28,097 nt of DNA, from positions 1 through 28,097 of IMG/VR virus record IMGVR_UViG_3300020450_000077; one strand, written 5' to 3'. Positions 32-18,418 of this stretch are shown piece by piece. Under the pieces are notes generated by a model. It had not been told where the DNA came from. It was given only the letters and a program-made list of their open reading frames with translations, and made no database searches. This DNA is from a virus. The position numbers were made by a program, and so were the translations under genes. How positions within the stretch are numbered: position 1 is the stretch's first letter; each line of letters begins with the position of its first letter.

Positions 32-51
32 AAAAGTATTATAGTACTTTT
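32..51. repeat. dispersed 20-bp palindrome, copy 1
   Basis: The sequence is AAAAGTATTATAGTACTTTT. It matches the consensus AAAAGTACYATRGTACTTTT with one change, GTAT for GTAC in the left half. It overlaps the TAA stop of the methyltransferase gene, whose stop is at 39-41 on the minus strand. It is probably a protein-binding site. Confidence 0.85.
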
Positions 52-1605: not shown

Positions 1606-1843
1606 TTTCTTTCTCCCCAGAAGGTATGGCTTTGATTGCACTAACATTCTTAACTTCATACGCTATCTTATTCATCTTATCGTATCGTTTGCTTGCAACA
1701 TTTAACTCTCTATCTCTTGCCATCTCTTTGGCTTCAAGCTTGTTTCTTGCTCTTATTCGTCTTGTTCTTCGATATACAACTTCGACAACGACATCAAACG
1801 ACATCGCTCTAAGATAATCAGTTGTTCCTCTGTCTAGTTTCAT
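1598..1843 (-). CDS. small basic hypothetical protein, 81 aa
   Basis: This is a short unknown protein starting MKLDRGTTDYLRAMSFDVV. The start at 1843 is chosen for a GGAGAAAG site about 6 nt upstream. The open frame continues to 1924, but that would overlap the HNH gene much further. The middle is strongly charged, with an Arg-rich stretch (YRRTRRIRARNKLEAKEMA), consistent with a helix that could touch nucleic acid. It overlaps the HNH gene on one side by 26 nt and the 162-aa gene on the other by 8 nt, consistent with one polycistronic message. No function is claimed. Confidence 0.65.
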   Translation of the reverse strand: MKLDRGTTDYLRAMSFDVVVEVVYRRTRRIRARNKLEAKEMARDRELNVASKRYDKMNKIAYEVKNVSAIKAIPSGEKEND

Positions 1844-2099
1844 TGTACTTTCTCCAATTTTCTTCTGCCCATTCGATTGGGTCAACTCCTTGGAATATCC
1901 ACCATCGTTTCTCGTTACCGTCATGATGTATTTCCATATGGTGGGTATGGCAGATAGGCACTACCCAATTGTCGCCCACTTTCAATGCAACACCTCTAGG
2001 TTCTGCATACATAATGTGATGAGCCTCACTCTCTCTTCCACAGATCAAGCAAGGCTCTTTTCTAACTAAGGATAAATATTTTTTATCCCTTATCTTCAA
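1818..2099 (-). CDS. HNH nuclease, DUF968/Ref-like
   Basis: This 93-aa protein has the pattern of a zinc-bound HNH nuclease. CLICG is near residues 17-21, followed by AHHIMY, then DNWVVPICHTHHMEIHHDG and a Trp-rich tail around EKRWW. The spacing resembles the C-terminal nuclease domain of P1 Ref and the DUF968 family, which nicks or cuts DNA in recombination settings. The likely start is TTG at 2099, sharing bases with the stop of the upstream gene (CTTGA), which suggests coupled translation. It sits beside ERF, the possible SSB and the PD-(D/E)XK nuclease, which fits a role in phage recombination. The HNH call is good; the subfamily is inferred from memory of the motif. Confidence 0.82.
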   Translation of the reverse strand: MKIRDKKYLSLVRKEPCLICGRESEAHHIMYAEPRGVALKVGDNWVVPICHTHHMEIHHDGNEKRWWIFQGVDPIEWAEENWRKYNETRQRNN

Positions 2100-2440
2100 G
2101 ACAACAAGTCATCCAGAGTTGTTGTTTGTTGTGCAGGTTTACTTGGGATAGGCTGTTCGCCATCTTTCCTATCCTTGTGAACACTTGCCCTAACCGTGAT
2201 GTACTTCTGCTGTTTAGAGCCGTCATCCCTTGGCTTGCTGAGATTAACCCACCCTGCAATACTGATCTTAGGCTTTGGGTCATCATTGCTGTGTATGTTA
2301 TCTTTGTATAAAAGATATTGCTTGTGGATATTCTCACACAAATCTAAGGGAAGTTCTAAGTCACCAATCATATCTGGTTGACCGTCTTTCTGCTTAAACC
2401 TGTTTGAGTTTAAGATACCATTGAAATAGATTTTATTCAT
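2096..2440 (-). CDS. possible single-stranded DNA-binding protein, 114 aa
   Basis: This small protein has a beta-rich body (ISIAGWVNLSKPRDDG, then KYITVRASV) and a low-complexity Pro/Gln/Thr linker ending in an acidic-hydrophobic tip, TTTLDDLLS. Such an acidic C-terminal tip is characteristic of SSB-type proteins and recruits partner enzymes. It follows the ERF gene with a TAATG stop/start overlap and has an AAGGAG site 7 nt upstream of the ATG. Annealing proteins are often encoded next to an SSB, which supports the guess. I cannot see a definite OB-fold motif, so the assignment rests on shape and context only. Confidence 0.5.
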   Translation of the reverse strand: MNKIYFNGILNSNRFKQKDGQPDMIGDLELPLDLCENIHKQYLLYKDNIHSNDDPKPKISIAGWVNLSKPRDDGSKQQKYITVRASVHKDRKDGEQPIPSKPAQQTTTLDDLLS

Positions 2441-3168
2441 TAGCTTGCTCCTTGTAAGTTATCTAATTTTGTTTTGGTTTCTTGTTTAAATTTAGCCATC
2501 AAATCTTTATCGTCTTTAAATGTGTTTATGGCTTCTTGGTTTACCGAAATAAACTCCTTCAGATGGTTCACAGACCCTTGATCTTGCATGAAGTGTTTTA
2601 GTATTCTAAACACCGCTTGCTGATGGGTCTCACCCTCATTCTTCTTTACTTGGTTATTCTTACCAGACAATTCTTTCACCACAGTTTTAATCTCTTCCTG
2701 TTTGCTGCCTGGCGGCGGAGTAGTTGTATTTTGTACCATAGTACTTTTTGGTTCTACTGTGGTAGAATTACCATCGTCATCTGTTTCTGGATCACATTCT
2801 AGGTTCAACATGGATTGAAGTAGATATCTTCTCATGTAGGTGATGCCACTACCAATTGCTTGGCTACCCTTTTTCGTATCGTCAAGACAGCTAACCTTGC
2901 TTTCTAGTTTTTCACCAGAGGGCAGGTGATACAGAGTACAAACCAATAGGTTTTCTATTCTGTCATTCATATTCACCACCTCTGTAGTAAAGGATATGTG
3001 TATACCATTCTCCTCTAAAGGTTTCTTGCAAGAGTCAAACACATCCATAAGAGTGGAGTATTTACTAGAAAATGCAGGATTTTTACCAGACTTCTTTAGT
3101 TCTGAGAAACCCTCTCCTCTTGCTTTCTCTATCGCTTCAAATATTTTTTCTTTCATAGGCTCACTCAT
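2440..3168 (-). CDS. erf: ERF-family single-strand annealing recombinase
   Basis: This is a 242-aa relative of P22 Erf, which binds single-stranded DNA ends and anneals complementary strands during phage recombination. The ERF signature is visible: NPAFSSKYSTLMDVFD in the N-terminal third and GSGITYMRRYLLQSMLNLE followed by DPETDDDGN in the middle. A Ser/Thr/Pro/Gln-rich linker separates this core from a helical C-terminal part. The start at 3168 is preferred because GGAGAG lies 5 nt upstream; the open frame extends to 3243 but would run deep into the upstream gene. The linker contains a copy of the dispersed palindrome (2729-2748). The exonuclease partner is probably the PD-(D/E)XK protein at 3941-4828. 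Confidence 0.92.
   Translation of the reverse strand: MSEPMKEKIFEAIEKARGEGFSELKKSGKNPAFSSKYSTLMDVFDSCKKPLEENGIHISFTTEVVNMNDRIENLLVCTLYHLPSGEKLESKVSCLDDTKKGSQAIGSGITYMRRYLLQSMLNLECDPETDDDGNSTTVEPKSTMVQNTTTPPPGSKQEEIKTVVKELSGKNNQVKKNEGETHQQAVFRILKHFMQDQGSVNHLKEFISVNQEAINTFKDDKDLMAKFKQETKTKLDNLQGAS
2729..2748. repeat. dispersed palindrome, copy 2, inside erf
   Basis: The sequence TTTTGTACCATAGTACTTTT has a perfect GTAC-CATA-GTAC core and one perfect arm; the other arm is TTTT instead of AAAA. It lies in the low-complexity linker of the ERF protein, where it encodes part of KSTMV. Confidence 0.75.
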
Positions 3169-3469
3169 GATTCTCTCCATATATAGTTTTGGTTCTGAAA
3201 AACCCCTTATGTTGGGGGTATCTATGCATGAAGTACCGTGCATACATAGAAATAAAGTCGTTACTAATTTTAAATGGGTTGCCGTATGTCACTACGCTAG
3301 TCTCCCATCGTACTCTATTTATAATCATCCACGCTGACATCTTCTTGTGACCTCTCTTGATTGCATGGAAAGTAAACTTGTCAAACAACTCGCATACCTC
3401 TGGGTTTTTCAGATGCCACTCCCACCACTTTTCTTTGAGATGTTCGTAATGATTAAAATATTCACTCAT
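3161..3469 (-). CDS. conserved phage hypothetical protein, 102 aa
   Basis: The protein resembles a small family I have seen in many phages, with the sequence pattern NPEVCELFDKFTFHAIKRGH, then RVRWETSVVTYG, FKISNDFISMYARYFM and a GFFRTK ending. No catalytic motif is apparent and the function is unknown. It is rich in aromatic and basic residues, so nucleic-acid contact is possible. It overlaps the ERF gene by 8 nt and the next upstream gene by 8 nt, placing it in the recombination operon. Confidence 0.78.
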   Translation of the reverse strand: MSEYFNHYEHLKEKWWEWHLKNPEVCELFDKFTFHAIKRGHKKMSAWMIINRVRWETSVVTYGNPFKISNDFISMYARYFMHRYPQHKGFFRTKTIYGENHE

Positions 3470-3686
3470 ATTTTCTTTTCCGTCCTTTCTTTGCTTTGCT
3501 TTTCTTGTTGTTAAAAAGGTCTGGCTTTAGGAAACTTTTGTTCATATCTTCGTGTATTTCTCTGGCTATCTTTGCCCTACGCTTCCATGTCGCAGAAAGT
3601 TTCTGACTTTTCTTTTGCTCTGGTGTGATTGGCTTCAGCTTTAGTGATTCCCAATCTATGTAAACTGATTTCTTTTCATCGCTCAT
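3462..3686 (-). CDS. small very basic hypothetical protein, 74 aa
   Basis: I do not recognise this protein. The C-terminal half is Lys/Arg-rich (for example KKSKAKKGRKRKYE at the end), which suggests nucleic-acid binding or a disordered tail. The N-terminus MSDEKKSVYIDWESLKLKP is mixed. It overlaps its neighbours by 8 nt downstream and 4 nt upstream (ATGA), so it is translated as part of the operon. Confidence 0.65.
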   Translation of the reverse strand: MSDEKKSVYIDWESLKLKPITPEQKKSQKLSATWKRRAKIAREIHEDMNKSFLKPDLFNNKKSKAKKGRKRKYE

Positions 3687-3913
3687 AGCATTCCCTCTGG
3701 TTTTTTTAGTGGTGTTCTTACAGTGATGTCAAAGTTCTCTACTTCAACACAGTTAGGCTTGCCAATAATTGGGTCTCTCAATTGGCTAAGTGCTTGAGCA
3801 AACTCAATGCAATCCTGTTTGTAGCTGAATACCATCCTGTGTACAGCATGATCATCTTTCTGAATGTCTGGTAAAGTTATTAGAAACAATACAAAATACG
3901 TTACGGGGTTCAT
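3683..3913 (-). CDS. small hypothetical protein, 76 aa
   Basis: The first 15 residues (MNPVTYFVLFLITLP) are hydrophobic and could be a short signal or membrane segment. The rest is soluble-looking with two Cys. The start at 3913 is well supported by AAAGGAG 6 nt upstream. That ribosome-binding site lies against the palindrome at 3922-3941 and partly within it, so a bound protein could affect this gene directly. Function is unknown. Confidence 0.65.
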   Translation of the reverse strand: MNPVTYFVLFLITLPDIQKDDHAVHRMVFSYKQDCIEFAQALSQLRDPIIGKPNCVEVENFDITVRTPLKKPEGML

Positions 3914-3921
3914 GGCTTCTC

Positions 3922-3941
3922 CTTTGTACTATAGTACTTTT
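3922..3941. repeat. dispersed palindrome, copy 3
   Basis: The sequence CTTTGTACTATAGTACTTTT has a perfect GTACTATAGTAC core and one perfect arm. It fills the 27-bp gap between two minus-strand genes. One end is the last base of the nuclease stop codon, and the altered arm forms part of the ribosome-binding site of the 3683-3913 gene. Confidence 0.82.
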
Positions 3942-4828
3942 TAGTTATCGTTGTATTGGGAACAGAAATCAGCAACGGAACAATAATTCGATTTACATCG
4001 TGTGTACTCACCTTTACGAAACTCTATGTCGTGATTTCTTTTATGTACGTCTACGTCTATCTTATCGGAAAGATCGTAAACTAAATCTTCTGCATCTTTC
4101 TGATTGTTGAAAACTCTGAACGCTTTCTTATTACCTTTTTTAATAACTGCCCACTTATCTTCTTTTGCCCATCTCTCTTTATCGGAGCATAAGATAAACT
4201 GATCTTCTAGATCGAACAACTGTCGAGCATCTTGATGTGCAGTTACTCTCTCGTTTACATATTTTATTCTGTCTTTCATAGACCAAAGAGGTATGTCTAT
4301 ATAGGCTATAGGATGTTGTGGATAGTCTGGTTTTAATTTAGCTTGTGTCCTGTTCCAATCTCTCAGTATCGCACATATCTTAATGTCTGTTACAGGTCTC
4401 TGTTTGTTTTTCTCAAGCAAGTAAGCATACACGTTTAGCTGATTAACCCACTCCTGCTTATCGAACATAACAGACCAGACAGACGTAACTTTATAATCGG
4501 TAATTATTAATTTATCGTCTTTCGATTCGTACTGATCAATTGCCCCAGATATTTTCCAACCTCTAACCGTATCGTAAAGTCTTTGCTCTTTCGTAACATT
4601 AATTGATTTACCACTTTCTAGAACAGAGTGAACTGCCGTACCGAATAAAGCAAAAGTCATATCCATTACATCGGTGGATATGTCTTCCTTATGCTTTTCT
4701 CTAAGCAACAAAACTCTGGGCGAATCAATAAGCTGAGTAACAGATATATCAGCATCACCTCTACTGTATTTATCTGATGTTGCATAATTTAAAAAAGAGT
4801 CTGGAAGACCATATTTATTAGTAATCAT
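3941..4828 (-). CDS. PD-(D/E)XK nuclease, RecB/Cas4-like exonuclease
   Basis: The 295-aa protein shows the motif series of the PDDEXK_1 (RecB-like) nucleases: GTAVHSVLE near residues 63-71, SGAID near 94-98, TDYK at 110-113 (catalytic D and K) and QLNVYAYLL near 130-138. The C-terminus carries three Cys (RCKSNYCSVADFC), reminiscent of the Fe-S cluster region of Cas4 and AddB, although I cannot place the fourth ligand with confidence. Phage members supply the DNA-end resection that feeds an annealing protein, here ERF. It is the first gene of the leftward operon, read from an AT-rich divergent promoter region shared with the RusA gene. The family is secure; polarity and substrate are inferred. 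Confidence 0.88.
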   Translation of the reverse strand: MITNKYGLPDSFLNYATSDKYSRGDADISVTQLIDSPRVLLLREKHKEDISTDVMDMTFALFGTAVHSVLESGKSINVTKEQRLYDTVRGWKISGAIDQYESKDDKLIITDYKVTSVWSVMFDKQEWVNQLNVYAYLLEKNKQRPVTDIKICAILRDWNRTQAKLKPDYPQHPIAYIDIPLWSMKDRIKYVNERVTAHQDARQLFDLEDQFILCSDKERWAKEDKWAVIKKGNKKAFRVFNNQKDAEDLVYDLSDKIDVDVHKRNHDIEFRKGEYTRCKSNYCSVADFCSQYNDN

Positions 4829-4911: not shown

Positions 4912-5322
4912 ATGTCAACTCAAAATAGAATAAAAGTTTTGTTTAATATAATTTTTACAATCGAGGGCGAACCTGCAAGCAAAGCGAATCAACGAAAATT
5001 AGTGTTGATTAAAGGTCGAATGGTTCCAATAAAGTCTAAGAAAGCATTGGATTATGTAAAAGAATTTCAAAGACAAATTCCAAAGATTGACCCTCTAACA
5101 GAGGACTATGTCAAGGTGGAGATGATGATCTACTATGCTTCCAGAAGACCAGACTTAGACGAATCACTTATCTTGGATTGTATGCAAAATTATGTGTACT
5201 ACAACGACAGGCAAGTAAAAGAGAAGCATATCTATTGGGGTCTAGATAAAGAAAGACCTCGTACAATAATTAGAGTGTCTGAGTATAGAAAGGAGGATAC
5301 ACCAGACTACTTGACAAACTAA
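4912..5322 (+). CDS. rusA: RusA-like Holliday junction resolvase
   Basis: This is a 136-aa endonuclease of the RusA family, which resolves Holliday junctions and other branched DNA as a dimer. The family's early motif is seen as EGEPASKANQR (residues 18-28). The catalytic aspartates fall in RRPDLDESLILD (D81 and D83) and YYNDRQV (D99). E. coli-type RusA has DLDN at the first site; here Asn is replaced by Glu, a small departure. The ATG at 4912 has no clear Shine-Dalgarno site, so translation may be leaderless or start a few codons inside. It opens the rightward replication operon and probably clears recombination intermediates before packaging. Confidence 0.88.
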   Translation: MSTQNRIKVLFNIIFTIEGEPASKANQRKLVLIKGRMVPIKSKKALDYVKEFQRQIPKIDPLTEDYVKVEMMIYYASRRPDLDESLILDCMQNYVYYNDRQVKEKHIYWGLDKERPRTIIRVSEYRKEDTPDYLTN

Positions 5323-5362
5323 CTAAATAAAAAAATAATACAAACTTCATAGTGGAGATATC

Positions 5363-7111
5363 ATGCTAAACTCAAACATGAGCAACATGGTACTCAGTTT
5401 AGGTAAAGGGCAACATAAACTACAATGCCCATCGACAGAGTGCCAACAGCGAAAAAAGAAAAATCTTAAAACATTATCCGTTAAGGTTGATATGGATGGG
5501 GCAGTTTACTATTGCCACCATTGTAATCTTAGTGGTCAAGAATTTTATAATAAACATAGGGAAACTAAAATGACTTCAATACCAAAGATAGAGAAAAAAC
5601 CATTGAGTATCAATGGGTTAGAGTGGCTTAACAAAAGAGGTATCAGCGAATCAACTGCCGATAAGTTGGGCATTACCACTTGCACACATTACATTCAAGG
5701 AGTTGGAAACGAGACCGAATGTGTGATGTTTCCCTACACAAACAGAGGTCAGGTATACGCATCTAAAATTAGATCGATAACTGAAAAAGGTTTTGCTTGT
5801 TCTGGCTCACCACAAAGCTTTTTTAACTTGGATAGGGTGGACACTACCAAGCCACTAATAATATGTGAGGGTGAGTTGGATGCTCTGTCATTTATTGAGT
5901 GTGGTGCAGAGGATGTTGCTTCCGTTGTCAGCGTACCAAATGGAGCGGTGATGAAAGTCGTTGATGAAGAGTTTGCAAAGAAAGACGATAGTAAGTTCCG
6001 TTTCCTGACAAATGCAGAAGAGATGCTAGAAGAGGTGGAGAAAGTAATCATAGCAACTGATTCGGATACAGCAGGGCAGGCTATGGCAGAAGAAATGGCT
6101 AGAAGAATAGGTAAGCATAAATGTTTTAAGATAAACTATCCGAAGGATTGCAAGGATGCTAACGATGTTATTCTTAAAAAAAGTACCATAGCACTTTTTG
6201 ATTTGATCGATCTTGCCTCCGCCTATCCAGTATCTGGATTGTATGATGCATCTCAGTTTTACAAAAACTTAGATAGTTTATATTCAGACGGCTTTGGGAA
6301 GGGAGAGAGTACAGGGTTTGATAACGTGGATGAGTTATATACAATCGTTAAGTCGCAACTCACTATCGTTACAGGTCATCCGTCAAGCGGTAAATCAGAG
6401 TTCATAGATCAGCTTATGGTTAACCTTGCTGTTAATAAGGGATGGAAGTTTGCTGTAGCAAGCTTTGAGAATCAACCAGAGATACATCTAGCTAAGATTA
6501 TATCTAAGTATAAAAAGAAACCATTCTTTGATGGACTGAACCCAAGACTTACAAAAGAAGAATTGGATGACGGTAAAGACTTCATAAAGAAACACTTCTA
6601 CTTTGTGCATCAGAGGGATGGTAGCTTGAGTTCAATTGATTCCCTGTTAGAAAGGATCAGGATTAGTGTATTGAGATATGGTACAAACGCTGTCGTCATA
6701 GACCCATACAACTATATCATGAGACCAACAGATGAACAGGAGACAGCATTTGTGTCTAGTCTGCTCAGTAAGATACGAGTGTTTGCTCAGACTTATGATA
6801 TCCACGTTTGGCTCGTTGCTCATCCGACCAAGATGATGCGAGATAGTTCTGGTAAAGTGCCACCGCCTATGGCTTACGATATCTCTGGCTCTGCTCACTT
6901 CTTCTCTAAGACAGATTGTGGTTTGACAATACACAGACCAGACCCTGCTAACAGCAATATCACAGAGGTGCATTGTTGGAAGTGTAGATACTCATGGGTG
7001 GGTAAACAAGGACAGACCATACTAAGCTACGATGGATTGACCTCTACATACAAACCTTTTGAGCCTTATAAAGGCATTGATGAGTTGTTTACAGATGCTC
7101 CAGACTTTTAG
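5363..7111 (+). CDS. DNA primase-helicase, T7 gp4/Twinkle type
   Basis: A single 582-aa protein combines primer synthesis and replicative unwinding. Zinc-finger cysteines C22, C27, C51 and C54 are followed by the TOPRIM acidic motifs ICEGELDAL (around E169) and IATDSDTAG (D233, D235). A linker leads to the RecA-like helicase with Walker A GHPSSGKS at 338-345, Walker B NAVVIDPYNY and a later VWLVAHPTK motif. The start is supported by GTGGAG five nt upstream. The linker contains a dispersed palindrome copy that encodes KKSTIALF (272-279). The gene ends 152 nt before a strong terminator. No DNA polymerase is found in the window, so it must be elsewhere in the genome or supplied by the host. Confidence 0.95.
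   Translation: MLNSNMSNMVLSLGKGQHKLQCPSTECQQRKKKNLKTLSVKVDMDGAVYYCHHCNLSGQEFYNKHRETKMTSIPKIEKKPLSINGLEWLNKRGISESTADKLGITTCTHYIQGVGNETECVMFPYTNRGQVYASKIRSITEKGFACSGSPQSFFNLDRVDTTKPLIICEGELDALSFIECGAEDVASVVSVPNGAVMKVVDEEFAKKDDSKFRFLTNAEEMLEEVEKVIIATDSDTAGQAMAEEMARRIGKHKCFKINYPKDCKDANDVILKKSTIALFDLIDLASAYPVSGLYDASQFYKNLDSLYSDGFGKGESTGFDNVDELYTIVKSQLTIVTGHPSSGKSEFIDQLMVNLAVNKGWKFAVASFENQPEIHLAKIISKYKKKPFFDGLNPRLTKEELDDGKDFIKKHFYFVHQRDGSLSSIDSLLERIRISVLRYGTNAVVIDPYNYIMRPTDEQETAFVSSLLSKIRVFAQTYDIHVWLVAHPTKMMRDSSGKVPPPMAYDISGSAHFFSKTDCGLTIHRPDPANSNITEVHCWKCRYSWVGKQGQTILSYDGLTSTYKPFEPYKGIDELFTDAPDF
6179..6198. repeat. dispersed palindrome, copy 4, inside primase-helicase
   Basis: AAAAGTACCATAGCACTTTT has one change from consensus (GCAC for GTAC). 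It lies in the linker between the TOPRIM and helicase domains of the primase-helicase gene. Confidence 0.82.
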
Positions 7112-7553: not shown

Positions 7554-7757
7554 TTATTCTGGTAATAATCCAAGAATTTTTAAGACAGCATCTGCTAATT
7601 CCTTTCTGCCTTTTAATACACCTCTCAATACACTATTATCACATTCTTCAATATGATCTTCGTATTTACTGAACTGTTTGATCTCGTCTTCGCACAGTTC
7701 AATAATCTCACCTAGCTTAGATGTATCTTCGATAACCTCATCTTTTAATCTAGTCAT
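7554..7757 (-). CDS. small acidic helical hypothetical protein, 67 aa
   Basis: I do not recognise this protein. It is acidic, predicted helical from its composition (EVIEDTSKLGEIIELCEDEI), and ends in a hydrophobic LKILGLLPE. The ATG at 7757 has AAGGA about 7 nt upstream. It is the last gene before the two minus-strand terminators and lies 2 nt after the end of the 55-aa membrane peptide gene, so it shares that transcript. Confidence 0.7.
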   Translation of the reverse strand: MTRLKDEVIEDTSKLGEIIELCEDEIKQFSKYEDHIEECDNSVLRGVLKGRKELADAVLKILGLLPE

Positions 7758-7759
7758 AT

Positions 7760-7927
7760 CTAATCCTTTCTATCTAAAATATAACCAACGATAATTCCAA
7801 ATGTCGCTACTGACATAAGGGATGAATATGCGGATAATAATTCTTTGTCATTATCCGCAAGTGCGGATGTACTCAGTAAGCAGAGTACACCCATAAAAAT
7901 TGATGAACCTATGAATAAAATTCTCAT
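7760..7927 (-). CDS. small membrane or exported peptide, 55 aa
   Basis: The start at 7927 forms an ATGA overlap with the end of the 38-aa gene, so I prefer it to the longer frame from 7957. The N-terminus MRILFIGSSIFMGVLCLL followed by STSALADND looks like a signal peptide with an Ala-X-Ala cleavage site. A second hydrophobic stretch, VATFGIIVGYIL, lies near the C-terminus and is followed by DRKD. It could be an exported peptide anchored by its tail or a two-segment membrane peptide. Function is unknown; a holin or antiholin role is only a guess from size and topology. Confidence 0.65.
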   Translation of the reverse strand: MRILFIGSSIFMGVLCLLSTSALADNDKELLSAYSSLMSVATFGIIVGYILDRKD

Positions 7928-8040
7928 GGTGCGTACCATAAAACTACAAGTATCCATAAACCCACGATGCCACCTAAAAGAAGTGTAATTGATACCGCAT
8001 CAATAATTGTCTTTAATATTTCTAACCAATTGATCTTCAT
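7924..8040 (-). CDS. 38-aa single-pass membrane peptide
   Basis: This very short gene begins ATG at 8040, overlapping the stop of the 427-aa gene as ATGA, and ends in another ATGA overlap with the 55-aa gene. The peptide starts MKINWLEILKTIIDAV and continues with a strongly hydrophobic stretch, ITLLLGGIVGLWILVVLWYA, that would span a membrane once. The double start/stop overlap in a tightly packed operon is the main evidence that it is translated. Its role is unknown. Confidence 0.62.
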   Translation of the reverse strand: MKINWLEILKTIIDAVSITLLLGGIVGLWILVVLWYAP

Positions 8041-9320
8041 GACTTGACCTCCAACTCGTTAGCAATCCTAGTGACAAGCTTCTTATCTAAGTCTCTGTTA
8101 GCTTTACCTATGTCCTCATGAACTGCGTGAAGAACATCACCGCTTGGCAAAGTCTTAGCCATAAGAAAAAGGTTAGGTATCACATTAGGAGTAAACTCAT
8201 AACCTACAGGCATTCCATCTTTGTTAGTATACCCATTGGCTTCAGTTCTTTTAGTGAAAGCAAGGTCAACAAAGTCACCCTTGTATAATTTCTTGCCCTC
8301 TTTTTTGACCCAATCCAATTCAACATAAGAGTCTTTCTTTTCATCGTATCTTTTGTAAACACTTAGGCTCATAGGAAATAAATACCTGTTACCCATTTGC
8401 GATCTGACAAAAGGAAGACAACGTCTTTCCCACATAGGTGAGACCTGCAATGTCCAATCTTTTACTCCATCTGACTTAGTAGTCATTTGGGAGGTACGCT
8501 TCAAGAATGCTCTAGTAGAGTACTTGACCTTATCCTCTGGGTTCCAATAATACTTTTCGTTATAATGAGAAAAAGACATAGGCAATTCACGTTGCAGGTC
8601 TGAATTGTTTGTAGCATCCGCTAAGAGACCCTCAGACTTTCTCAACAAATGAACATACTTTGCACCACTCTCAGATTGTATGTAAGTGTCACATTGAACA
8701 TCTATATTTTCATATGCTTTAGGAAAGTTAGTTGATAACCCTCTATCAGCAGAATACTTGGCATCATATAAAAGACTATCAATTTTAGAAAAGTATGCGG
8801 TGTATCGCTCATCGTATCTAAGGTCTTTCAAAGAGTCTAACTGATGAACGAAACCCATAAGATTGTCTCCAACATTGTTACTAGAATATCCTTGAGAAAA
8901 GTCCTTAAAGTTTTGAGCAAAGACATAAGCTTGTCTAATATCTCCGCCTGCGGTGTTTGACTCTTTAATGTTTACTGATCGAGTACCATCTTTTCCGCCA
9001 TTACGATGATAGTAATAGGTTCGGTTCTTTTTATTTAAAACATCAGCAATAAAATCTTTTGGAATATCTAATGTTTCTCTCTGAAAATTTATACATTGTG
9101 CAAGCTTGATCTTAGCCATGTATTTTTTAACAGCAGTCTCTCTTTTCCTACCTGCTTTATTATCGCAGGTCTTCCAATACCATCTAGGTCTCTTGTTGTA
9201 GATATAGTCTTTAGCTTCCTGCTTAGTGTCAAATATCATTCCATCTGGCATAACCGTATAGGTATATTCTGGAGGTTCGCCTAAAGACGTAGCCTGCTTT
9301 ATGATTGTACGTTTTTCCAT
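8037..9320 (-). CDS. hypothetical protein of the MoxR/VWA cassette, 427 aa
   Basis: I do not recognise a fold or catalytic motif in this protein. It is soluble-looking and rich in Tyr, Lys and Asp, with no signal peptide, no membrane segment and no evident repeat. It begins MEKRTIIKQATSLGEPPEY, and AAAAGGAAT lies a proper distance upstream of the ATG. It is encoded 115 nt downstream of the VWA/metallopeptidase gene, with a palindrome copy and hairpins in that gap, so it may have its own control point. The context makes it a candidate substrate or partner of the AAA+/VWA pair. That is inference only. Confidence 0.78.
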   Translation of the reverse strand: MEKRTIIKQATSLGEPPEYTYTVMPDGMIFDTKQEAKDYIYNKRPRWYWKTCDNKAGRKRETAVKKYMAKIKLAQCINFQRETLDIPKDFIADVLNKKNRTYYYHRNGGKDGTRSVNIKESNTAGGDIRQAYVFAQNFKDFSQGYSSNNVGDNLMGFVHQLDSLKDLRYDERYTAYFSKIDSLLYDAKYSADRGLSTNFPKAYENIDVQCDTYIQSESGAKYVHLLRKSEGLLADATNNSDLQRELPMSFSHYNEKYYWNPEDKVKYSTRAFLKRTSQMTTKSDGVKDWTLQVSPMWERRCLPFVRSQMGNRYLFPMSLSVYKRYDEKKDSYVELDWVKKEGKKLYKGDFVDLAFTKRTEANGYTNKDGMPVGYEFTPNVIPNLFLMAKTLPSGDVLHAVHEDIGKANRDLDKKLVTRIANELEVKS

Positions 9321-9375
9321 TTTTGATTCCTTTTCTTAAATGGTGTTTCTCTAGGGCAACCCTAAAGAGAATACA

Positions 9376-9395
9376 AAAAGTACCATAGTATTTTT
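9376..9395. repeat. dispersed palindrome, copy 6, with flanking arms
   Basis: AAAAGTACCATAGTATTTTT has one consensus change (GTAT for GTAC). Outside it lie inverted arms GAGAAT at 9367-9372 and ATTCTC at 9398-9403, extending the dyad. It is 56 bp upstream of the 427-aa gene start. Confidence 0.85.
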
Positions 9396-9414
9396 GCATT
9401 CTCACAAAGGTTGC

Positions 9415-9431
9415 AGGGGGCAATGCCCCCT
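9415..9431. other. GC-rich hairpin after the VWA gene
   Basis: AGGGGGC-AAT-GCCCCCT forms a 7-bp GC-rich stem just past the stop of the minus-strand VWA gene. There is no T run on either side, so it is a weak terminator at best; it may stabilise or process the message. Confidence 0.5.
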
Positions 9432-9435
9432 ACAA

Positions 9436-10677
9436 TTAGTCATCGATAAATATTGTTGTGCCATAAGGTGGCAGGTAATAACTGCCAAGTTTTTCTTTAG
9501 ATTGGCAACATATCCAGATAATGTCACAAGGCTCATCAAACTGCGGTTCGTCACCGTAGTCACTGATCTCGCAGTCAGTAAAGATCACAAGCTTCTTGAA
9601 ATTAAAGTCCTGCCAATTCTCATCGATGTATTGAAAAGCAGGTCTAATTCTAGTACCGCCTGTACCATTGATCTTCAGAGAGTCTATCTCCTCACCCTTG
9701 TCAAACCGCTTGATACCATCAACGTCAACTCTGGATGTAAACGGTATGACAGTGATAGAGTCTGGCTTGATATCTTTAGATAGAGCATTCATTTCTGAAA
9801 ACCCTCTATCTCTTTGCTTCTTATCGACAGAAGCAGAGGTATCTTGAAGCACTCCGATATCACCGCATGACATACCCACGATTGTAGGTGTAATGGCATT
9901 CCAAGTAAGATGCTTTTTGTTAAGCTTCCTATATGTGTAGGTAGAGTCATTGTCACCGCCCTGCCATGCAAAGGTAAATGCTTCCTGCCATTCAACCTTA
10001 GACTCTTCAACTCTGTTTAGAACGTCTTGAATCTCTTGGTTGATTGCACCCACCTGCTTTGCTTTGATACCTGCTTGAACAATTTTTCTATCAATAGACT
10101 TGCTGAGTTTTTCCAACTGCTCTTGGTTCATCTCAGAGCCGTCTTCATTAGTAGGCTTCTCGATCTCACCGCCCCAAGGTTGTTGCGGTTCATCCTTAAC
10201 AGCATCCTTGTTTTGCTCAAGCACCGCATATATTTCTTCTGCGGTCATCTTCCTGCACTTGTCTCTATCAAGACCTAAGTCTCTCATTTCAACAAGACCG
10301 CCTTTAGGTAACTGTAACCGTAAGTCTGGTTTGCGAAACGATGCCATGCCAAAAACACGATCTCTCTGGTAGTCGTAGGTCTCTATCGTATTGTTGACCT
10401 TTAGGTCACAGGCAAAGTTCCATAACTTAGGGTCTCTGTTTCCCATGCGGATATGGTGCTTGTCTACTATGTGCATAATCTCATGCACAAGTACGGTTGC
10501 ATTTTCTATAACAGTTAAGGTCTCAACAAACGGCAGTGAATAGAAAATGTTTTTGCCATCAGTACACATTGTCTCAATGTCATTGCGTTCTGTTGGGTTG
10601 CCTGCAATCATCACTCCACCATAAAAGGTGAAGTGATTTGAAACGATTGACTTGGCTAATGCTATTTTATTTTCCAT
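9436..10677 (-). CDS. VWA-domain protein with HExxH metallopeptidase-like domain (DUF2201 type)
   Basis: The 413-aa protein has two parts. The N-terminal region carries HEIMH (residues 65-69), the zinc-binding HExxH motif, followed by WNFACDLKVNN, a pattern I associate with the DUF2201 N-terminal domain. After a Glu/Pro-rich linker comes a von Willebrand A domain with the MIDAS metal-site residues DTSAS (279-283), GGT (T342) and FTDCE (D368). Such proteins pair with MoxR AAA+ ATPases, and one is encoded immediately upstream, 8 nt away. The start has a good AGGAG site 5-7 nt upstream. The module may remodel a protein target or insert a metal. Whether the peptidase motif is active is unknown. 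Confidence 0.9.
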   Translation of the reverse strand: MENKIALAKSIVSNHFTFYGGVMIAGNPTERNDIETMCTDGKNIFYSLPFVETLTVIENATVLVHEIMHIVDKHHIRMGNRDPKLWNFACDLKVNNTIETYDYQRDRVFGMASFRKPDLRLQLPKGGLVEMRDLGLDRDKCRKMTAEEIYAVLEQNKDAVKDEPQQPWGGEIEKPTNEDGSEMNQEQLEKLSKSIDRKIVQAGIKAKQVGAINQEIQDVLNRVEESKVEWQEAFTFAWQGGDNDSTYTYRKLNKKHLTWNAITPTIVGMSCGDIGVLQDTSASVDKKQRDRGFSEMNALSKDIKPDSITVIPFTSRVDVDGIKRFDKGEEIDSLKINGTGGTRIRPAFQYIDENWQDFNFKKLVIFTDCEISDYGDEPQFDEPCDIIWICCQSKEKLGSYYLPPYGTTIFIDD

Positions 10678-10685
10678 GTTAACTC

Positions 10686-11786
10686 CTAAACATAAATATC
10701 ATTTAAATGTCCATCAGCGACTAACTGCTTGAAAGTATCTGATGATCGAACACCGCTACAAACTGCCATGCAATCCTGCACACAAACCTGCAATAGGTCT
10801 TTGTTATCTAATCGCACACAATATTCCGCAATAGCAGGGAACGTGTCTAATGTGCAACGTGCAGATAAAGAGCCTAACAATACGAATAGAATATCTGGTC
10901 TATCGCAGATAGGAGCATTAGCAGGTTCATCCAGAATAGCATCCAAGTTAGTTAACTCTGGAGCGGTCTGTACTACCTCTAGAAATGCCATGAAGCTGTT
11001 AGTCGTAGCTTCCCCTAGTGTACCAGATAGCAAAGCCTGTAAGCAGGTTAGATCGCCCTCAAGACCCATATCCAATATCGTGTTTGCTCGTTGCCATGCT
11101 CTAGGTGTAGAGGTTGAGTCCTGTGTAGGGTCTGAGTGACAAAAGACCGTAGGGTCTTCCTTACCTTTGAACCTCATGAAAGCAGGAATATAGGGAGACC
11201 ATCCGCTCTTAGTGGCATAGTCACAAAAGTCATCGATATCTGGTTCGACATAGATGAACGTAACCCTGTCCTTAATGTGTGTGGGAATACGATTAGTGCC
11301 TGCCTTATCTTTTAGGCGGTTACCTGCACACATAAAGAACCAACCGTCTGGAAGCTTGTATTCACCAACCATGCCATCATTCATGATCGGAGCAATAGCA
11401 TTCTGAGTGGGAACAGGTGCTTGCGGAAATTCATCACCGAATACCCAACCTATTTCCATGCCTGCGGTCTTCTTAGCAACAACCTCTAGATACCAATGAG
11501 ACTTTAAAACTTTTGTCTGATCGTTGGCTAAATCTGGCATTTGAATACCGTTAACCTCAGTTGGGTCTTTCTGTGCCAAAGGAACTTCAACCATACCCAT
11601 ATCCATATCGTTGTAAGGTTCTTGAACTGATTGCCTACCGCAGTCTGTCTTACCAATTCCCTGCATACCCATCAGCATAGGAACAATAGGTTTTGCTCCT
11701 GTACCTGCTTTCTGGTTTTCGTAATTAGAAATTAGGCAATGTCTCAATATCTTGCCTGCTTGTCTTATGTTAACTGTTTGTGTCAT
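10686..11786 (-). CDS. MoxR-type AAA+ ATPase
   Basis: This 366-aa AAA+ ATPase shows Walker A GMQGIGKT at residues 40-47, Walker B WVFGDE at 114-119 and sensor 1 CAGNR near 153-157. The segment between them (VPLAQKDPTEVNGIQMPD) matches the MoxR style of an ATPase that works with a VWA partner. The C-terminal third is Cys- and Leu-rich and helical. The ATG at 11786 has AAAGGA upstream. It is first in a two-gene block with the VWA/HExxH protein and is preceded by a palindrome copy inside an extended inverted repeat. MoxR/VWA pairs act as chaperone-like or chelatase-like machines; the phage target is unknown. Confidence 0.9.
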   Translation of the reverse strand: MTQTVNIRQAGKILRHCLISNYENQKAGTGAKPIVPMLMGMQGIGKTDCGRQSVQEPYNDMDMGMVEVPLAQKDPTEVNGIQMPDLANDQTKVLKSHWYLEVVAKKTAGMEIGWVFGDEFPQAPVPTQNAIAPIMNDGMVGEYKLPDGWFFMCAGNRLKDKAGTNRIPTHIKDRVTFIYVEPDIDDFCDYATKSGWSPYIPAFMRFKGKEDPTVFCHSDPTQDSTSTPRAWQRANTILDMGLEGDLTCLQALLSGTLGEATTNSFMAFLEVVQTAPELTNLDAILDEPANAPICDRPDILFVLLGSLSARCTLDTFPAIAEYCVRLDNKDLLQVCVQDCMAVCSGVRSSDTFKQLVADGHLNDIYV

Positions 11787-11809
11787 TTGTTATTCCTTTC
11801 AATATGACT

Positions 11810-11835
11810 TCATAAACTCACCATTAAGTTTATGA
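11810..11835. other. 9-bp hairpin in the MoxR leader
   Basis: TCATAAACT (11810-11818) and AGTTTATGA (11827-11835) form a perfect stem with an 8-nt loop, 24 bp upstream of the MoxR start. It may affect translation or stability of the leftward message. Confidence 0.55.
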
Positions 11836-11848
11836 GTAGGGAGTCTCG

Positions 11849-11868
11849 AAAAATACTATGGTACTTTT
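11849..11868. repeat. dispersed palindrome, copy 7, inside a 38-bp inverted repeat
   Basis: AAAAATACTATGGTACTTTT has one change (ATAC for GTAC). Perfect 7-bp arms GGAGTCT (11840-11846) and AGACTCC (11871-11877) flank it, making a long interrupted dyad. It lies between the 234-aa gene and the MoxR gene, 63 bp upstream of the MoxR start. Confidence 0.85.
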
Positions 11869-11890
11869 GAAGACTCCTAACTGATAAACT

Positions 11891-12595
11891 TTAGAATGAT
11901 ATCTTCTTTTGACCTGCAACATCAGAGACAGGTGCTAGAGCATCAGCAATTGCGGTAACCTTATTGTTAAGCTTCTTAACATCCGCTCCTGCTTTCTTAG
12001 CCTTAGACATTTTCTTTTTGGCTTGATCTTCAAAAGATTGTCTAGTCGCTATGGCTTCTTCTAGCCTGCTCTTTAGATCGAGGACAATATCCATTTCCTT
12101 ACCGCCCTTGTATTTAGTTCCGCACTTGGCAGGAACACCAACAACAGAGTCGATAACTTTCTGTACAAAGTCTCTGTTAGCTTCCTTGTTAGGGTTGCAT
12201 ATGTCCATTAACTTAGCTTCAGAAGTGATCTTGAACTGCTCCATAGTCTTAACGATATGGTCAACGCTAGTATCATTCTGACCTGCGAAAGCATCATTCT
12301 TGAGTACTAAGAATTGATGTAACCAACTAAGCTTTTCGGCTTTCTTCTTTTGTTGATTATCGTTTAAGCCTGCTTCCATAAGACCCTCTCTAATAGTCGC
12401 AAGATCATCAGATTTTAATTCTGTTTTCCTGCTTATGATCGATGAGGTTGAAAGCATAGTCGCATAGGTCTGGCAATTTGAAAGATTGATCTTTTCAGAG
12501 TTCTTCTTGTTGTTGCCTTTTAGTCTATTGATTGAAAGATCAAGAGACTTGATAGAGGATATAGCATCCTGTGTAAGATTGATTTTAGTGTTCAT
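11891..12595 (-). CDS. hypothetical helical protein, 234 aa, first in the MoxR/VWA cassette
   Basis: I do not recognise this protein. It is Lys/Ser/Asp-rich and mostly helical by composition, with a basic C-terminal region (KKKMSKAKKAGADVKKLNN) that could be a coiled coil or nucleic-acid contact. No membrane segment or catalytic motif is visible. AAGGAAC lies just upstream of the ATG at 12595. It is preceded by a leader of over 300 nt full of hairpins. The shared strand and order suggest it works with the AAA+/VWA pair, but a separate role is equally possible. Confidence 0.78.
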   Translation of the reverse strand: MNTKINLTQDAISSIKSLDLSINRLKGNNKKNSEKINLSNCQTYATMLSTSSIISRKTELKSDDLATIREGLMEAGLNDNQQKKKAEKLSWLHQFLVLKNDAFAGQNDTSVDHIVKTMEQFKITSEAKLMDICNPNKEANRDFVQKVIDSVVGVPAKCGTKYKGGKEMDIVLDLKSRLEEAIATRQSFEDQAKKKMSKAKKAGADVKKLNNKVTAIADALAPVSDVAGQKKISF

Positions 12596-13219: not shown

Positions 13220-13714
13220 ATGGCAGGAAAGAAACCGCCCAAGTTAACATTAGTGAAAGGTCAGGAAAAAGGAAAAGACCGCCCCTTAACTGCGAAGCAG
13301 GCTAGCTTCTGCGAAAGTATAGTAGGCATTAATGAGGATGAACCCTTAACGATAGTGGACAGTTACCGTAAGCATTACTCCACTGACAATATGTCGTTAA
13401 ATGCTCAGTATGTAGAGAGTAGTAGGTTATTTAATCACCCTATGATTTCCCTAAGAATCGAACACCTCAGAACTGAGCAGGAGAAAAGAAACATTGCACG
13501 AAACCAGTCGAGAAAGGAGAGGGTAATATTTAATCTGGAGTCACTTGCCTATGATAAAACTAATACAGGACATACAAGAGTTAAGAGTCTGGAACTGTTA
13601 GGACGTATGGCAGGAGTCGATCTGTTCAGAGATAACCATGTGATAGAAGATAATAGGAATGCACAGGATATTAAGGCTGAACTAGAGAAGAAGCTAAAAT
13701 CTCTATTATCTTGA
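13220..13714 (+). CDS. terS: terminase small subunit
   Basis: The 164-aa protein fits the small terminase subunit that recognises the packaging site and loads DNA on the large subunit. The N-terminus has LTAKQASFCESIV and an IVDSYRKHYS helix, the usual start of these helix-turn-helix proteins. The second half, RVIFNLESLAYDK then RVKSLELLGRMAGVDLF, is a pattern I know from small terminases of marine phages. The ATG at 13220 follows GGAGTT. The large subunit is encoded 1.6 kb downstream, separated by small genes, an unusual gap. The assignment is from sequence pattern and position. Confidence 0.82.
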   Translation: MAGKKPPKLTLVKGQEKGKDRPLTAKQASFCESIVGINEDEPLTIVDSYRKHYSTDNMSLNAQYVESSRLFNHPMISLRIEHLRTEQEKRNIARNQSRKERVIFNLESLAYDKTNTGHTRVKSLELLGRMAGVDLFRDNHVIEDNRNAQDIKAELEKKLKSLLS

Positions 13715-15359: not shown

Positions 15360-16867
15360 ACCTCCAATCAAAAGATATCAAAAAGAAAATAAGTATGCTC
15401 CCATTGGAGCAACAAAAAGAAGTATTAGCTCTTCTAGAGCAATACGAACAGGTTAAAAGCAAAGAAGAATCACAAAAAGAATTTATTCCTTTTGTTCGGG
15501 CTATGTGGTCAGAGTTCATAGGGGGAGAGCATCATGAGATTATGGCAGAAGCTTTTGAGAAAGTGGCAAGCGGTGAACTAAAAAGACTGATAATCAATAT
15601 GCCACCCCGTCATACCAAGTCAGAATTTGCATCGTATTTATTTCCTGCTTGGTTCTTAGGACAATATCCAGAAAAGAAAGTGATCCAGACAGCCCACACT
15701 GCGGAGTTGGCAGTTGGTTTTGGCAGGAAGGTGCGTAACCTTATACAGTCAGAGGACTATCAAAAGGTATTTAGCGGTATAGAACTGTCCACAGACAGTA
15801 AGGCTGCAGGTAGATGGAACACAAACAAGGGCGGAGACTACTTTGCTATCGGTGTTGGTGGGGCAGTAACAGGAAAAGGTGCGGATGTTTTGATAATCGA
15901 TGACCCACACTCCGAACAGGACGCACAGGCAGGGCAGTATAACCCAGAAGTATTCGATAAAGTGTACGAATGGTACACATCAGGACCTCGTCAGCGTCTA
16001 CAGCCTGGAGGAGCGATCATACTTGTGATGACCAGATGGGCAAAGAGAGACCTAACAGGTCAAATTTTAAAAAGTATGACTGAAAGAGAGGGTGCAGATG
16101 ACTGGGAAGTCATAGAATTACCTGCAATTTTACCCTCTGGTAGCCCACTATGGGGCGAATATTGGAAATTAGAGGAATTAGAAAGCCTAAAAGCGGAATT
16201 ACCCCTGTCAAAATGGAACGCACAGTACCAACAAGACCCCACATCGGAAGAAGGAGCGTTAATTAAGCGTGAATGGTGGCAGGAATGGACAGAAAGAGAG
16301 CTACCACCCTGTGAATGCATCATACAATCTTGGGATACAGCGTTTCTAAAGACACAAAGGAGCGATTACAGTGCCTGCACCACATGGGGAGTGTTCTATC
16401 ATCATAAAGATGTGGATCAAAGCCGTCCTCACCTGATTCTTTTAGATGCATTCAAGGAAAAACTAGAGTTTCCAGAGTTAAAACGTGCGGCATACGACAA
16501 ATACTGGGAATGGGAACCAGATCAGATGATCGTAGAAGCAAAAGCATCAGGAGCGCCGCTTGTGTTTGAGCTTAGAGCTATGGGCATCCCTGTAACAGAG
16601 TTCACCCCCACTAGGGGTAACGATAAAATTGCTAGAGTTAACGCAGTTACAGACTTGTTTTCTAGTGGAAGTGTATGGTACTATTCCTCTAGATGGTCAG
16701 AAGAGGTAATTGAGGAATGTGCAGCATTTCCCACAGGTGATCATGACGACTTAGTAGATAGTACAACCCAAGCTCTTTTAAGGTTTCGTCAAGGAGGATG
16801 GGTTAGAGCAGAAAGAGATGATTGGGATGACGAACCTAAATACAGAAGACCAGTGGAGTATTACTAA
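15356..16867 (+). CDS. terL: terminase large subunit
   Basis: This 503-aa packaging motor has both domains. The ATPase has the variant Walker A PPRHTKS at residues 83-89 and Walker B VLIIDDP around 178-184. The nuclease has IQSWDTAF (first Asp), MIVEAKASG and HDDLVDSTTQ (last Asp) in the C-terminal third, as in the RNase H-like fold. The start is GTG at 15356 overlapping the previous stop (GTGA); an in-frame ATG lies 13 codons later. It translocates DNA into the prohead through the portal and cuts it to length. The assignment is secure. Confidence 0.96.
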   Translation: MNLQSKDIKKKISMLPLEQQKEVLALLEQYEQVKSKEESQKEFIPFVRAMWSEFIGGEHHEIMAEAFEKVASGELKRLIINMPPRHTKSEFASYLFPAWFLGQYPEKKVIQTAHTAELAVGFGRKVRNLIQSEDYQKVFSGIELSTDSKAAGRWNTNKGGDYFAIGVGGAVTGKGADVLIIDDPHSEQDAQAGQYNPEVFDKVYEWYTSGPRQRLQPGGAIILVMTRWAKRDLTGQILKSMTEREGADDWEVIELPAILPSGSPLWGEYWKLEELESLKAELPLSKWNAQYQQDPTSEEGALIKREWWQEWTERELPPCECIIQSWDTAFLKTQRSDYSACTTWGVFYHHKDVDQSRPHLILLDAFKEKLEFPELKRAAYDKYWEWEPDQMIVEAKASGAPLVFELRAMGIPVTEFTPTRGNDKIARVNAVTDLFSSGSVWYYSSRWSEEVIEECAAFPTGDHDDLVDSTTQALLRFRQGGWVRAERDDWDDEPKYRRPVEYY

Positions 16868-17094
16868 TGCCTAAATACAGAAAAAAAGACGGAACAATAG
16901 TATCATTTACAAAACCTGTTCCTAAAATAACACAAAGAATGTTAGGACTAAGACCTGCTAGAAAAACAATAACAGTAAAAGATATTGAGATGGCAGGTAA
17001 AAGAAGAAAGAAAGCAGGCGGTGTTATAAAAATGCGTGGTGGTGGAATAGCAAAAAAAGGAACTGCTAGTTTATCAGGTTATAAAGTCGTATGA
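16867..17094 (+). CDS. small basic protein with KMRGGG tail, 75 aa
   Basis: An unrecognised basic protein (MPKYRKKDGTIVSFTKPVP at the start). Its end, GGVIKMRGGGIAKKGTASL then SGYKVV, contains the KMRGGG motif also found at the ends of the 80-aa and 319-aa proteins encoded just downstream. It starts in a TAATG overlap with the terminase stop, with GTGGAG upstream, and its own stop overlaps the next start (ATGA). I think this is a virion or assembly protein, but no function is shown. Confidence 0.75.
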   Translation: MPKYRKKDGTIVSFTKPVPKITQRMLGLRPARKTITVKDIEMAGKRRKKAGGVIKMRGGGIAKKGTASLSGYKVV

Positions 17095-17189
17095 CCATAT
17101 CTAGAGCCAGTATGAAATCACAACTGGTTAGAGGTAAGAAGAAGTTCGTAAAGGCTAAAAAGAAAAAATATAAAAAGAAGAAAAAATAA
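17091..17189 (+). CDS. 32-aa lysine-rich peptide
   Basis: The peptide begins MTISRASMKSQLVRGKKK and ends in KKKKYKKKKK; 14 of its 32 residues are Lys. It starts in an ATGA overlap with the upstream stop and ends in a TAATG overlap with the downstream start, so it is locked into the operon by both neighbours. The composition is that of a nucleic-acid-neutralising peptide. A conserved small phage family with an ISRASM-like opening probably exists, from memory. Confidence 0.68.
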   Translation: MTISRASMKSQLVRGKKKFVKAKKKKYKKKKK

Positions 17190-17431
17190 TGGCTGCCTTC
17201 TCCTCAGATGAACTTAAATACATGAAAGCTATAGCTGACTATAGAGCAAAGAAGATAAGCTATTCAGACTTCCTCGACATAACTCTAAAGCTGAGAGATA
17301 TAAGAAGACACATAAAAGATAGCCACACTATGACAGGCAGAAAGTTTTCCCCTAGATATAAAAAGGGTGGCAGAATAAAAATGCGTGGGGGCGGCGCTGT
17401 CCAAAAACAATTGACATACAGGATTCGATAA
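17189..17431 (+). CDS. small basic protein with KMRGGG tail, 80 aa
   Basis: The N-terminal two-thirds is a charged helical domain (FSSDELKYMKAIADYRAKK, then YSDFLDITLKLRDIRRHIK). The C-terminus KKGGRIKMRGGGAVQKQ followed by LTYRIR repeats the tail motif of its neighbours, and its last three residues (RIR) match the 319-aa protein's end. It is coupled to the 32-aa gene by TAATG. The function is unknown; the shared tail suggests a shared partner or destination. Confidence 0.75.
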   Translation: MAAFSSDELKYMKAIADYRAKKISYSDFLDITLKLRDIRRHIKDSHTMTGRKFSPRYKKGGRIKMRGGGAVQKQLTYRIR

Positions 17432-17458: not shown

Positions 17459-18418
17459 ATGGCAGATGACAAAGATAAAAAACGAAAAGAAATTCGTGAC
17501 AGGCTTAAAAAGTCTAGAGAAAGCGGTGGAATAGATAGAAGTATAAACAGATTAACCACTAGCTCTCCTGGTGGTAGTCCAAATAAAGATGGAACAGTTA
17601 CAAGAACTAAGAAACTTAGAGAAAAATTTTCTACAAAAGAGGGAGTTCTTCCTAAGAAGAGAGTTGTTAAGAAAACAACAGTTAAAGCAGACCCTGCTAA
17701 AAAGACACCAAAGAAAGGTTCACCAAAAGGTCAGGCAGGAAAAGGCGCAAGTCCTTTGGCAGGAAAGCCAAGAAGTATAGCAGAGGCTAAAAGAAGAGGT
17801 GAAGTATACTTCTTTGATAGCAAGGGTGTTAAGAAGATAGCCGCTACTGCTGCAGATTTGAAAAGAACAGGTCTAACACTCAGACAGTACGCTAATAAGT
17901 TTGCTCCCAAAAAACAAACTAAGGCACACGCAGAATCATTAAAAGGTTTCGCCGCTACTAAAAAGAGGAAAGGTGGCTCAATTAAGAAAAAAGGTATGGC
18001 TGCAGGCGGTAGAATGAAGAAGAAGGGTATGGCTGCAGGTGGTCGAATGAAGAAAAAAGGAATGGCTCGTGGCGGCATGATGAAGAAGAAAGGCATGGCT
18101 AAAGGCGGTGTTATGAAAAAGAAAAACATGGCACGAGGAGGCATGATGAAGAAGAAAATGATGTCTGGTGGCGGTAAGCTAAAGATGGTCATGAAAAATG
18201 GTAAGAAGGTTCCTTTCTTTGCAGCTGACGGCAAGGGTAAAATGCGTGGCGGTGGCATGATGAAGAAGAAGGGTTATGCTATGGGCGGAGCCATGAAGAA
18301 AAAAGGCATGGCAAAAGGTGGAGCTATGAAGAAGAAGGGTATGAAGAAAGGTGGTAAGACCATGAAGATGAGAGGCGGAGGTCTAGCTACTAGAGGTACA
18401 AACTTCAGAATTAGATAA
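17459..18418 (+). CDS. Lys/Gly/Met repeat protein with KMRGGG tail, 319 aa
   Basis: The protein has a basic N-terminal region, a small conserved-looking segment (KRRGEVYFFDSKGVKKIAAT, then LKRTGLTLRQYANKF, residues 111-148) and nine copies of an 11-residue unit, consensus MKKKGMAxGGx. Six units run from 175 to 240 and three from 268 to 300, split by a spacer with its own KMRGGG. The tail is KMRGGGLATRGTNFRIR. A strong GAGGAG site precedes the ATG. Similar Lys/Gly/Met repeat proteins are common in uncultured marine phages as far as I recall, with no assigned function. Position between terminase and portal suggests a virion or DNA-condensing role. This is inference. Confidence 0.82.
   Translation: MADDKDKKRKEIRDRLKKSRESGGIDRSINRLTTSSPGGSPNKDGTVTRTKKLREKFSTKEGVLPKKRVVKKTTVKADPAKKTPKKGSPKGQAGKGASPLAGKPRSIAEAKRRGEVYFFDSKGVKKIAATAADLKRTGLTLRQYANKFAPKKQTKAHAESLKGFAATKKRKGGSIKKKGMAAGGRMKKKGMAAGGRMKKKGMARGGMMKKKGMAKGGVMKKKNMARGGMMKKKMMSGGGKLKMVMKNGKKVPFFAADGKGKMRGGGMMKKKGYAMGGAMKKKGMAKGGAMKKKGMKKGGKTMKMRGGGLATRGTNFRIR
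17981..18358 (+). repeat. 33-nt imperfect repeats coding the MKKKGMAxGGx units
   Basis: Six in-phase 33-nt units (17981-18178) and three more (18260-18358) encode the 11-residue repeats. The units differ mainly at third codon positions and at variable residues, so they have diverged while the protein pattern was kept. Confidence 0.8.

Follow-up and report, generated by a model that had tools for sequence, protein, structure and literature searches.

The complete IMG/VR virus record IMGVR_UViG_3300020450_000077, analysed here as a single window of 28,097 bases, carries on its minus strand a cassette (7554-12595) centred on an AAA+ ATPase gene and a gene for a VWA-domain protein. The four large genes (8037-12595) are transcribed in the order HEL234 (11891-12595, 234 amino acids (aa)), AAA+ ATPase (10686-11786, 366 aa), VWA protein with an N-terminal HExxH metallopeptidase domain (9436-10677, 413 aa), and F427 (8037-9320, 427 aa), all with plausible ribosome-binding sites, and are followed by small open reading frames (ORFs) of 38 aa (7924-8040), 65 aa (7760-7957), and 67 aa (7554-7757). 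A first-pass annotation, made from the sequence alone, had proposed one cassette in which a MoxR/VWA-like pair with a metallopeptidase motif is joined by the 234-aa and 427-aa genes; all of its ORFs were found where it had placed them, on the minus strand, and this view of the locus holds. The "tiny membrane peptides" that it also listed include the one-transmembrane-like 38-aa ORF and the membrane-like 65-aa ORF (Kyte-Doolittle 19-residue maxima of 2.6 and 2.0, respectively), but not the 67-aa ORF, which is acidic, soluble, and not membrane-like by hydropathy. All three small ORFs are present in three close relatives with 54-100% identity (91-100% for the 65-aa and 63-76% for the 67-aa ORF). 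Of the terminators attributed to the cassette, the hairpin with a T7 tail at its 3' end (7445-7418, minus strand) is convincing, whereas the minus-strand candidate upstream of HEL234 (12653-12631) is weaker.

The AAA+ protein matches phrog_1297, the family of N4 gp24, with an E-value of 4.3e-58. Across 124 homologues, no exception occurs at the Walker A G/K, at Walker B D118, or at N156 and P228-R229, and R174 is kept in 121 of them. In searches against the PDB, the family profile identified midasin as the closest solved structure (8.4e-19), followed by CbbQ/NorQ (0.0025). Pfam AAA_5 gave no match in the window, and the Pfam scan assigned the protein to no AAA family; we describe the protein as a MoxR/midasin-like AAA+ ATPase, with the name "MoxR-like" only. 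The VWA protein matches phrog_1314, the N4 gp25 family (2.2e-77), as well as the Pfam models DUF2201_N (7.6e-26; 91.7 bits, cut-off 23.2) and DUF2201 (8.3e-12; 45.8 bits, cut-off 26.4), and it had no match in the PDB. Its zinc motif H65-E66-xx-H69 with N87 and D91, and D279, S281, and S283 of the metal ion-dependent adhesion site (MIDAS), are invariant in 131 unique homologues, with T342 and D368 present in 130 of these. The motifs named in the first-pass annotation (Walker A GMQGIGKT, Walker B WVFGDE, HEIMH, and MIDAS) are thus present and conserved across homologues, and the protein combines a VWA domain with a putative metallopeptidase domain that is predicted to carry out zinc-dependent proteolysis. 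The PHROG label "HNH endonuclease" for phrog_1314 is unsupported, as the family is a VWA-metallopeptidase family (DUF2201_N plus DUF2201). This label or "homing endonuclease" is attached to the family in many phage annotations, e.g. Av05_00170 and Cassandra_0139.

HEL234 and F427 had no match by tblastn against INPHARED, no significant match in PHROGs or Pfam, and none in NCBIfam or PADLOC. The first impression from tblastn that both are ORFans was, however, overturned by profile methods, which place them in two broad families that none of these four collections contains and that appear to be new. Iterative hidden Markov model (HMM) searches of loci fetched with the pair recovered 64 unique homologues of HEL234, the founder of its family, all of them upstream of the AAA gene on the same strand, and an HMM built without the clade of the window still detected HEL234 (E 1.7e-18; best decoy 11). 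HEL234 is basic and predicted to be entirely helical (AlphaFold, predicted local distance difference test (pLDDT) 83), and the model suggests that its C-terminal helix of approximately 60 residues could be suitable for a scaffold. In some genomes, HEL234 and the AAA gene are separated by small genes of variable kind. A DUF6011 protein (phrog_4046) recurs in this position (loci L145, L148, L140, L113, L126, L134, L115, and L159). The genome-contig scan with HEL234 also returned a fragment (L351) in a 6.7-kb contig binned to an Akkermansiaceae metagenome-assembled genome; its origin is doubtful, and the contig may be from a phage.

The same approach recovered 72 unique homologues of F427 downstream of the VWA gene; the conserved C-terminal motif reads KA..LL.RR.K. 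F427 itself is a divergent member, recognized by a seed HMM that contained neither F427 nor gp16 of phage CRP-7 (E 2.3e-9; best decoy 1.8) and by profile-profile comparison (1.6e-6 vs. 0.26 for the reversed protein). Its AlphaFold model is poor overall (mean pLDDT 64.5), except for a beta-rich C-terminal domain, mostly with pLDDT >90, which ends in the helix bearing the conserved motif. CRP-7 gp16 entered the family by iteration only (0.76 with the seed HMM), so that the case for including it depends on intermediate sequences and on where it lies; compared with the finished family profile, of which it is a part, it scores 99.9%. Remote F427 relatives occupy the same position in loci L143 and L095 (86.8%). 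MM2_64 of phage MinM2 is suggestive only as a further relative (E 0.0035 vs. 0.013 for the shuffled sequence). Profile comparison gave no signal for homology of either HEL234 or F427 with DUF3150 (probability <=0.5) or Nmad5 (<=0.3), and no homology was found between them and DUF6011 or the replication families.

Both families are tightly linked to the pair. When IMG/VR was scanned with alignments of HEL234 or F427 only, blind to the pair, AAA and VWA genes stood in the expected place in 31/31 and 27/27 loci, respectively; these are the loci with enough flanking DNA, and they are not independent events, since close relatives are returned first and several contigs had already been seen. The outcome that the first-pass annotation had named as speaking against its proposal, flanking genes occurring apart from the pair in most relatives, was therefore not observed. 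Pattern scans based on alignments A1 and A2, both of them very diverse, were unsuccessful. HEL234 and F427 also stay with the pair even where AAA identity has fallen to ~30%.

The AAA-VWA core pair itself is already known as the N4 gp24/gp25 family, which the family HMMs match with E-values of 5.8e-85 and 9.3e-88. In INPHARED, 725 records match the AAA protein and 559 the VWA protein, mostly N4-like and jumbo phages. Among the 145 loci that hold both genes, which were fetched by one or the other and include near-duplicates (61 remain after clustering at 90% AAA identity), AAA precedes VWA on one strand in every case. In N4 and the Schitoviridae, the homologous pair (phrog_1297/phrog_1314) has the same order and strand and lies in the early/middle gene region, but N4 and LIT1 differ in lacking HEL234 and F427 homologues and share only ~25% identity with the cassette pair. 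The search for hidden partners among LIT1 ORF34 and ORF31 and three neighbours in Rhizobium phage X3_15 gave no signal. LIT1 ORF31 (L006, 5274-6107), just upstream of the gp24-like gene, encodes a further AAA protein (Pfam AAA 4.6e-9) that carries no annotation. Group 2.2 jumbo phages likewise couple a MoxR AAA+ protein with a vWA protein that has a metallopeptidase at its N-terminus, a pair for which a role in virion assembly with structural-protein processing has been proposed (Iyer et al. 2021, PMC7824862); the two that we checked, slurp01 and Cassandra, have no HEL234, F427, or DUF3150 partner. The interpretation in the first-pass annotation needs correction in that the pair is widespread in phages, includes N4 gp24/gp25, and has a published proposal. 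We found no function in the literature for the N4-like pair or for DUF3150 in phages. MoxR-vWA-VMAP systems share the idea of the core pair but have a different third component (PMC7159879), and the cassette partner proteins had no match in Pfam, NCBIfam, or PADLOC, in scans that did not include VMAP's own profile.

The identity of the partner varies with the lineage of the pair. In the AAA tree, a branch with 99/97 support separates two clades: one has F427, mostly accompanied by HEL234, and the other has DUF3150, Nmad5, or, in N4-like loci, no known partner. The partner labels require 10 changes on the tree compared to 24.6 in shuffles. F427, DUF3150, and Nmad5 are mutually exclusive in the tree set, and HEL234 occurs together with DUF3150 in MinM2. 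DUF3150 and Nmad5 were called by Pfam on representatives and otherwise by the family HMM, with Nmad5 above its cut-off and DUF3150 below its own (3.3e-4). Three plasmids, from B. vietnamiensis (pBVIE02), Variovorax, and Rhodovastum, one of them typed as conjugative, carry the AAA gene first, then a gene of the DUF3150 family (2e-62 to 6e-78), then the VWA gene. This trio resembles the cassette in its homologous AAA and VWA genes, their order, and the single dedicated partner, but the partner is DUF3150-like and sits between the two genes. Judged from these sequences, partner families follow the AAA tree and are replaced, not simply lost.

The genes surrounding the cassette point to a link with replication. 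A plus-strand block beyond its 3' end (4912-7111) encodes RusA and a primase-helicase (phrog_239; 5363-7111), which is the cassette-linked replication gene in this phage group, and is preceded by a minus-strand recombination block with a methyltransferase, an Erf-like annealing protein, and a PD-(D/E)XK nuclease (39-4828). The terminase, portal, and head block begins at 13220 on the plus strand with the small terminase gene (13220-13714), which adjoins the cassette. Beside the portal gene, a repetitive protein very rich in lysine, glycine, and methionine, with KKKGMARGG-type repeats, is encoded at 17459-18418, and two neighbouring small ORFs (16867-17431) have related RGGG tails. A scan from the primase-helicase alone gave 25 loci flanked by 7 kb or more on each side, and 24 of them hold the pair; 20 of these 25 carry all four large genes, and the other four with the pair carry DUF3150. 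Likewise, a phrog_239-type primase-helicase is present in all 13 cassette records inspected (those behind L003, L004, L097, L099, L107, L032, L119, L128, L158, L151, L124, L037, and L022). Judged by terminase and portal, the nearest relatives among named phages are HTVC023P, HTVC027P, 023Pt_psg01, DSL-LC04, MinM2, CRP-901, and Caulobacter phage RW; full-record searches found neither AAA nor VWA in six of these, all but MinM2, despite terminase/portal identities of 32-59%. Five of the six pair-lacking phages encode DNA polymerase A (one, RW, below the curated cut-off), compared to none of the 13 cassette records, some of which are fragments so that absence is no proof; other polymerase families were not searched.

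MoxR/midasin-like AAA+ rings work with VWA co-factors through MIDAS-client contacts, and RavA-ViaA, ATV p618/p892, midasin, and CbbQ/NorQ can be regarded as functional analogues of the cassette pair, since in each of them a VWA/MIDAS co-factor serves an AAA+ ring. The search of the PDB with the cassette VWA protein gave no match that would point to homology with their VWA parts. To our knowledge, none of their VWA partners has a DUF2201_N peptidase domain. By analogy, the AAA+ protein would assemble into a ring that acts with the VWA protein, whose MIDAS site may hold partners or clients by their acidic residues, so that the zinc-peptidase domain at its N-terminus could cut them. HEL234 and F427 would be the dedicated subunits, either adaptors or clients, of one lineage of the system, with DUF3150 or Nmad5 proteins in this role in other lineages. 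The machine would belong to the replication/recombination module with the primase-helicase, RusA, Erf-like annealing protein, and PD-(D/E)XK nuclease, and would probably dismantle or process nucleoprotein complexes in early-to-middle infection rather than build virions. We see an even chance that the cassette is such an ATP-driven remodelling or proteolysis machine, that its adaptor or client subunits are exchangeable, and that it works for replication or recombination.

Several observations weigh against this interpretation. Phage synteny alone could hold neighbouring genes together, and linkage is no proof of interaction. Foldseek returned nothing below 0.001 for HEL234 against the PDB and BFVD or for F427 against the PDB, so that the term "adaptor or client" is a guess, and N4 and LIT1 have no recognizable partner. 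N4 and CRP-7 carry the pair alongside replication genes of quite another kind, and the link to this primase-helicase is hence not universal. In phage Av-05, which is outside the 145-locus set, the AAA and VWA genes lie apart on opposite strands. The VWA protein of Variovorax PBL-E5 plasmid 2 (L350, 9943-11229) has lost HExxH (ISATVLH) but kept DTSGS, indicating that peptidase activity can be dispensable and offering a natural test of which activity matters. Gene content, gene order, conserved active residues, linkage, and partner exchange are observed here, and the function of the machine is inferred from them.

Among the other explanations, virion assembly or maturation, with AAA-VWA as a chaperone-cochaperone for head or tail and the metallopeptidase processing structural proteins, was suggested in the first-pass annotation and corresponds to the proposal for group 2.2 jumbo phages, which was made by analogy with the archaeal virus ATV (PMC7824862). 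The adjoining small terminase gene would fit this role, but the cassette lies on the strand opposite to the structural genes, tracks the primase-helicase, and is absent from the six phages with related terminase and portal, and the homologous trio is found on plasmids, which make no virions. Moreover, the LIT1 particle proteins listed by mass spectrometry (gp52-56 and gp71-83) do not include the pair (ORF33/35), although an assembly factor that acts catalytically could be missing from the finished particle. We thus consider a virion role rather improbable. Membrane remodelling, also suggested there, has nothing in its favour beyond the two tiny membrane-like ORFs. Host takeover, the third suggestion of that annotation, or counter-defence would require the machine to extract or cleave a host protein, such as a nucleoid protein, RNA polymerase, or a defence complex, with F427 as the host-facing adaptor. 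The ratio of nonsynonymous to synonymous substitution rates (dN/dS) is 0.21-0.30 for the fast-evolving F427, compared to 0.04-0.13 for HEL234, AAA, and VWA, ~0.065 for TerL, and ~0.025 for the primase-helicase, as would be expected of a host-facing surface, and partner exchange and the presence of the system in both phages and plasmids agree with such a function. Yet small ORFs near F427 evolve just as fast, and a counter-defence gene of general use should spread with more freedom than one linked to replication genes; PADLOC gave no match either, though it models defence rather than counter-defence. This explanation appears unlikely to us.

A CobS/CobT-like function, in which the pair drives metal chelation or cofactor assembly, is brought to mind by the cobS/cobT labels that related phage genes often carry in the literature. 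The AAA-plus-VWA architecture in general does resemble CobS/CobT. However, no large chelatase subunit was found among the scanned window proteins, and the VWA protein has an invariant HExxH and matches DUF2201_N/DUF2201, not the CobT model, which leaves this function very improbable. Mere co-inheritance, with the four genes as neighbours in one phage lineage and HEL234 and F427 not acting with the pair, would account for loci that all stem from related phages, with conserved gene order and many near-duplicates, and for the variable small genes between HEL234 and AAA. It agrees less well with the replacement of partners, with the persistence of HEL234 and F427 beside strongly diverged pairs, and with the F427 family adjoining the pair in CRP-7-type phages, where the surroundings are different, and we assign it a low probability. 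Beyond this phage group, we put forward more tentatively, as possible though short of an even chance, that phages and plasmids share a general DNA-metabolism-linked remodelling/proteolysis machine of AAA and VWA-peptidase with exchangeable specificity subunits (F427, DUF3150, and Nmad5, and optionally HEL234). Such a machine would differ from both a virion-assembly chaperone and a cobaltochelatase, although these names, like "HNH endonuclease", are common labels for its genes.

Judged against the open-access literature, the families of HEL234 and F427, the exchange of partners, which extends to plasmids, and the linkage to the replication module appear to be new, although an earlier description is possible. 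The AAA-VWA pair is present in hundreds of sequenced phages, including the model phage N4; it is often mislabelled, and we found no tested function for it. Exchangeable partners, plasmid copies, and the replication linkage in one phage group turn attention away from virion assembly and towards DNA metabolism, and the role of the pair can now be put to a direct test with N4 on E. coli K-12.

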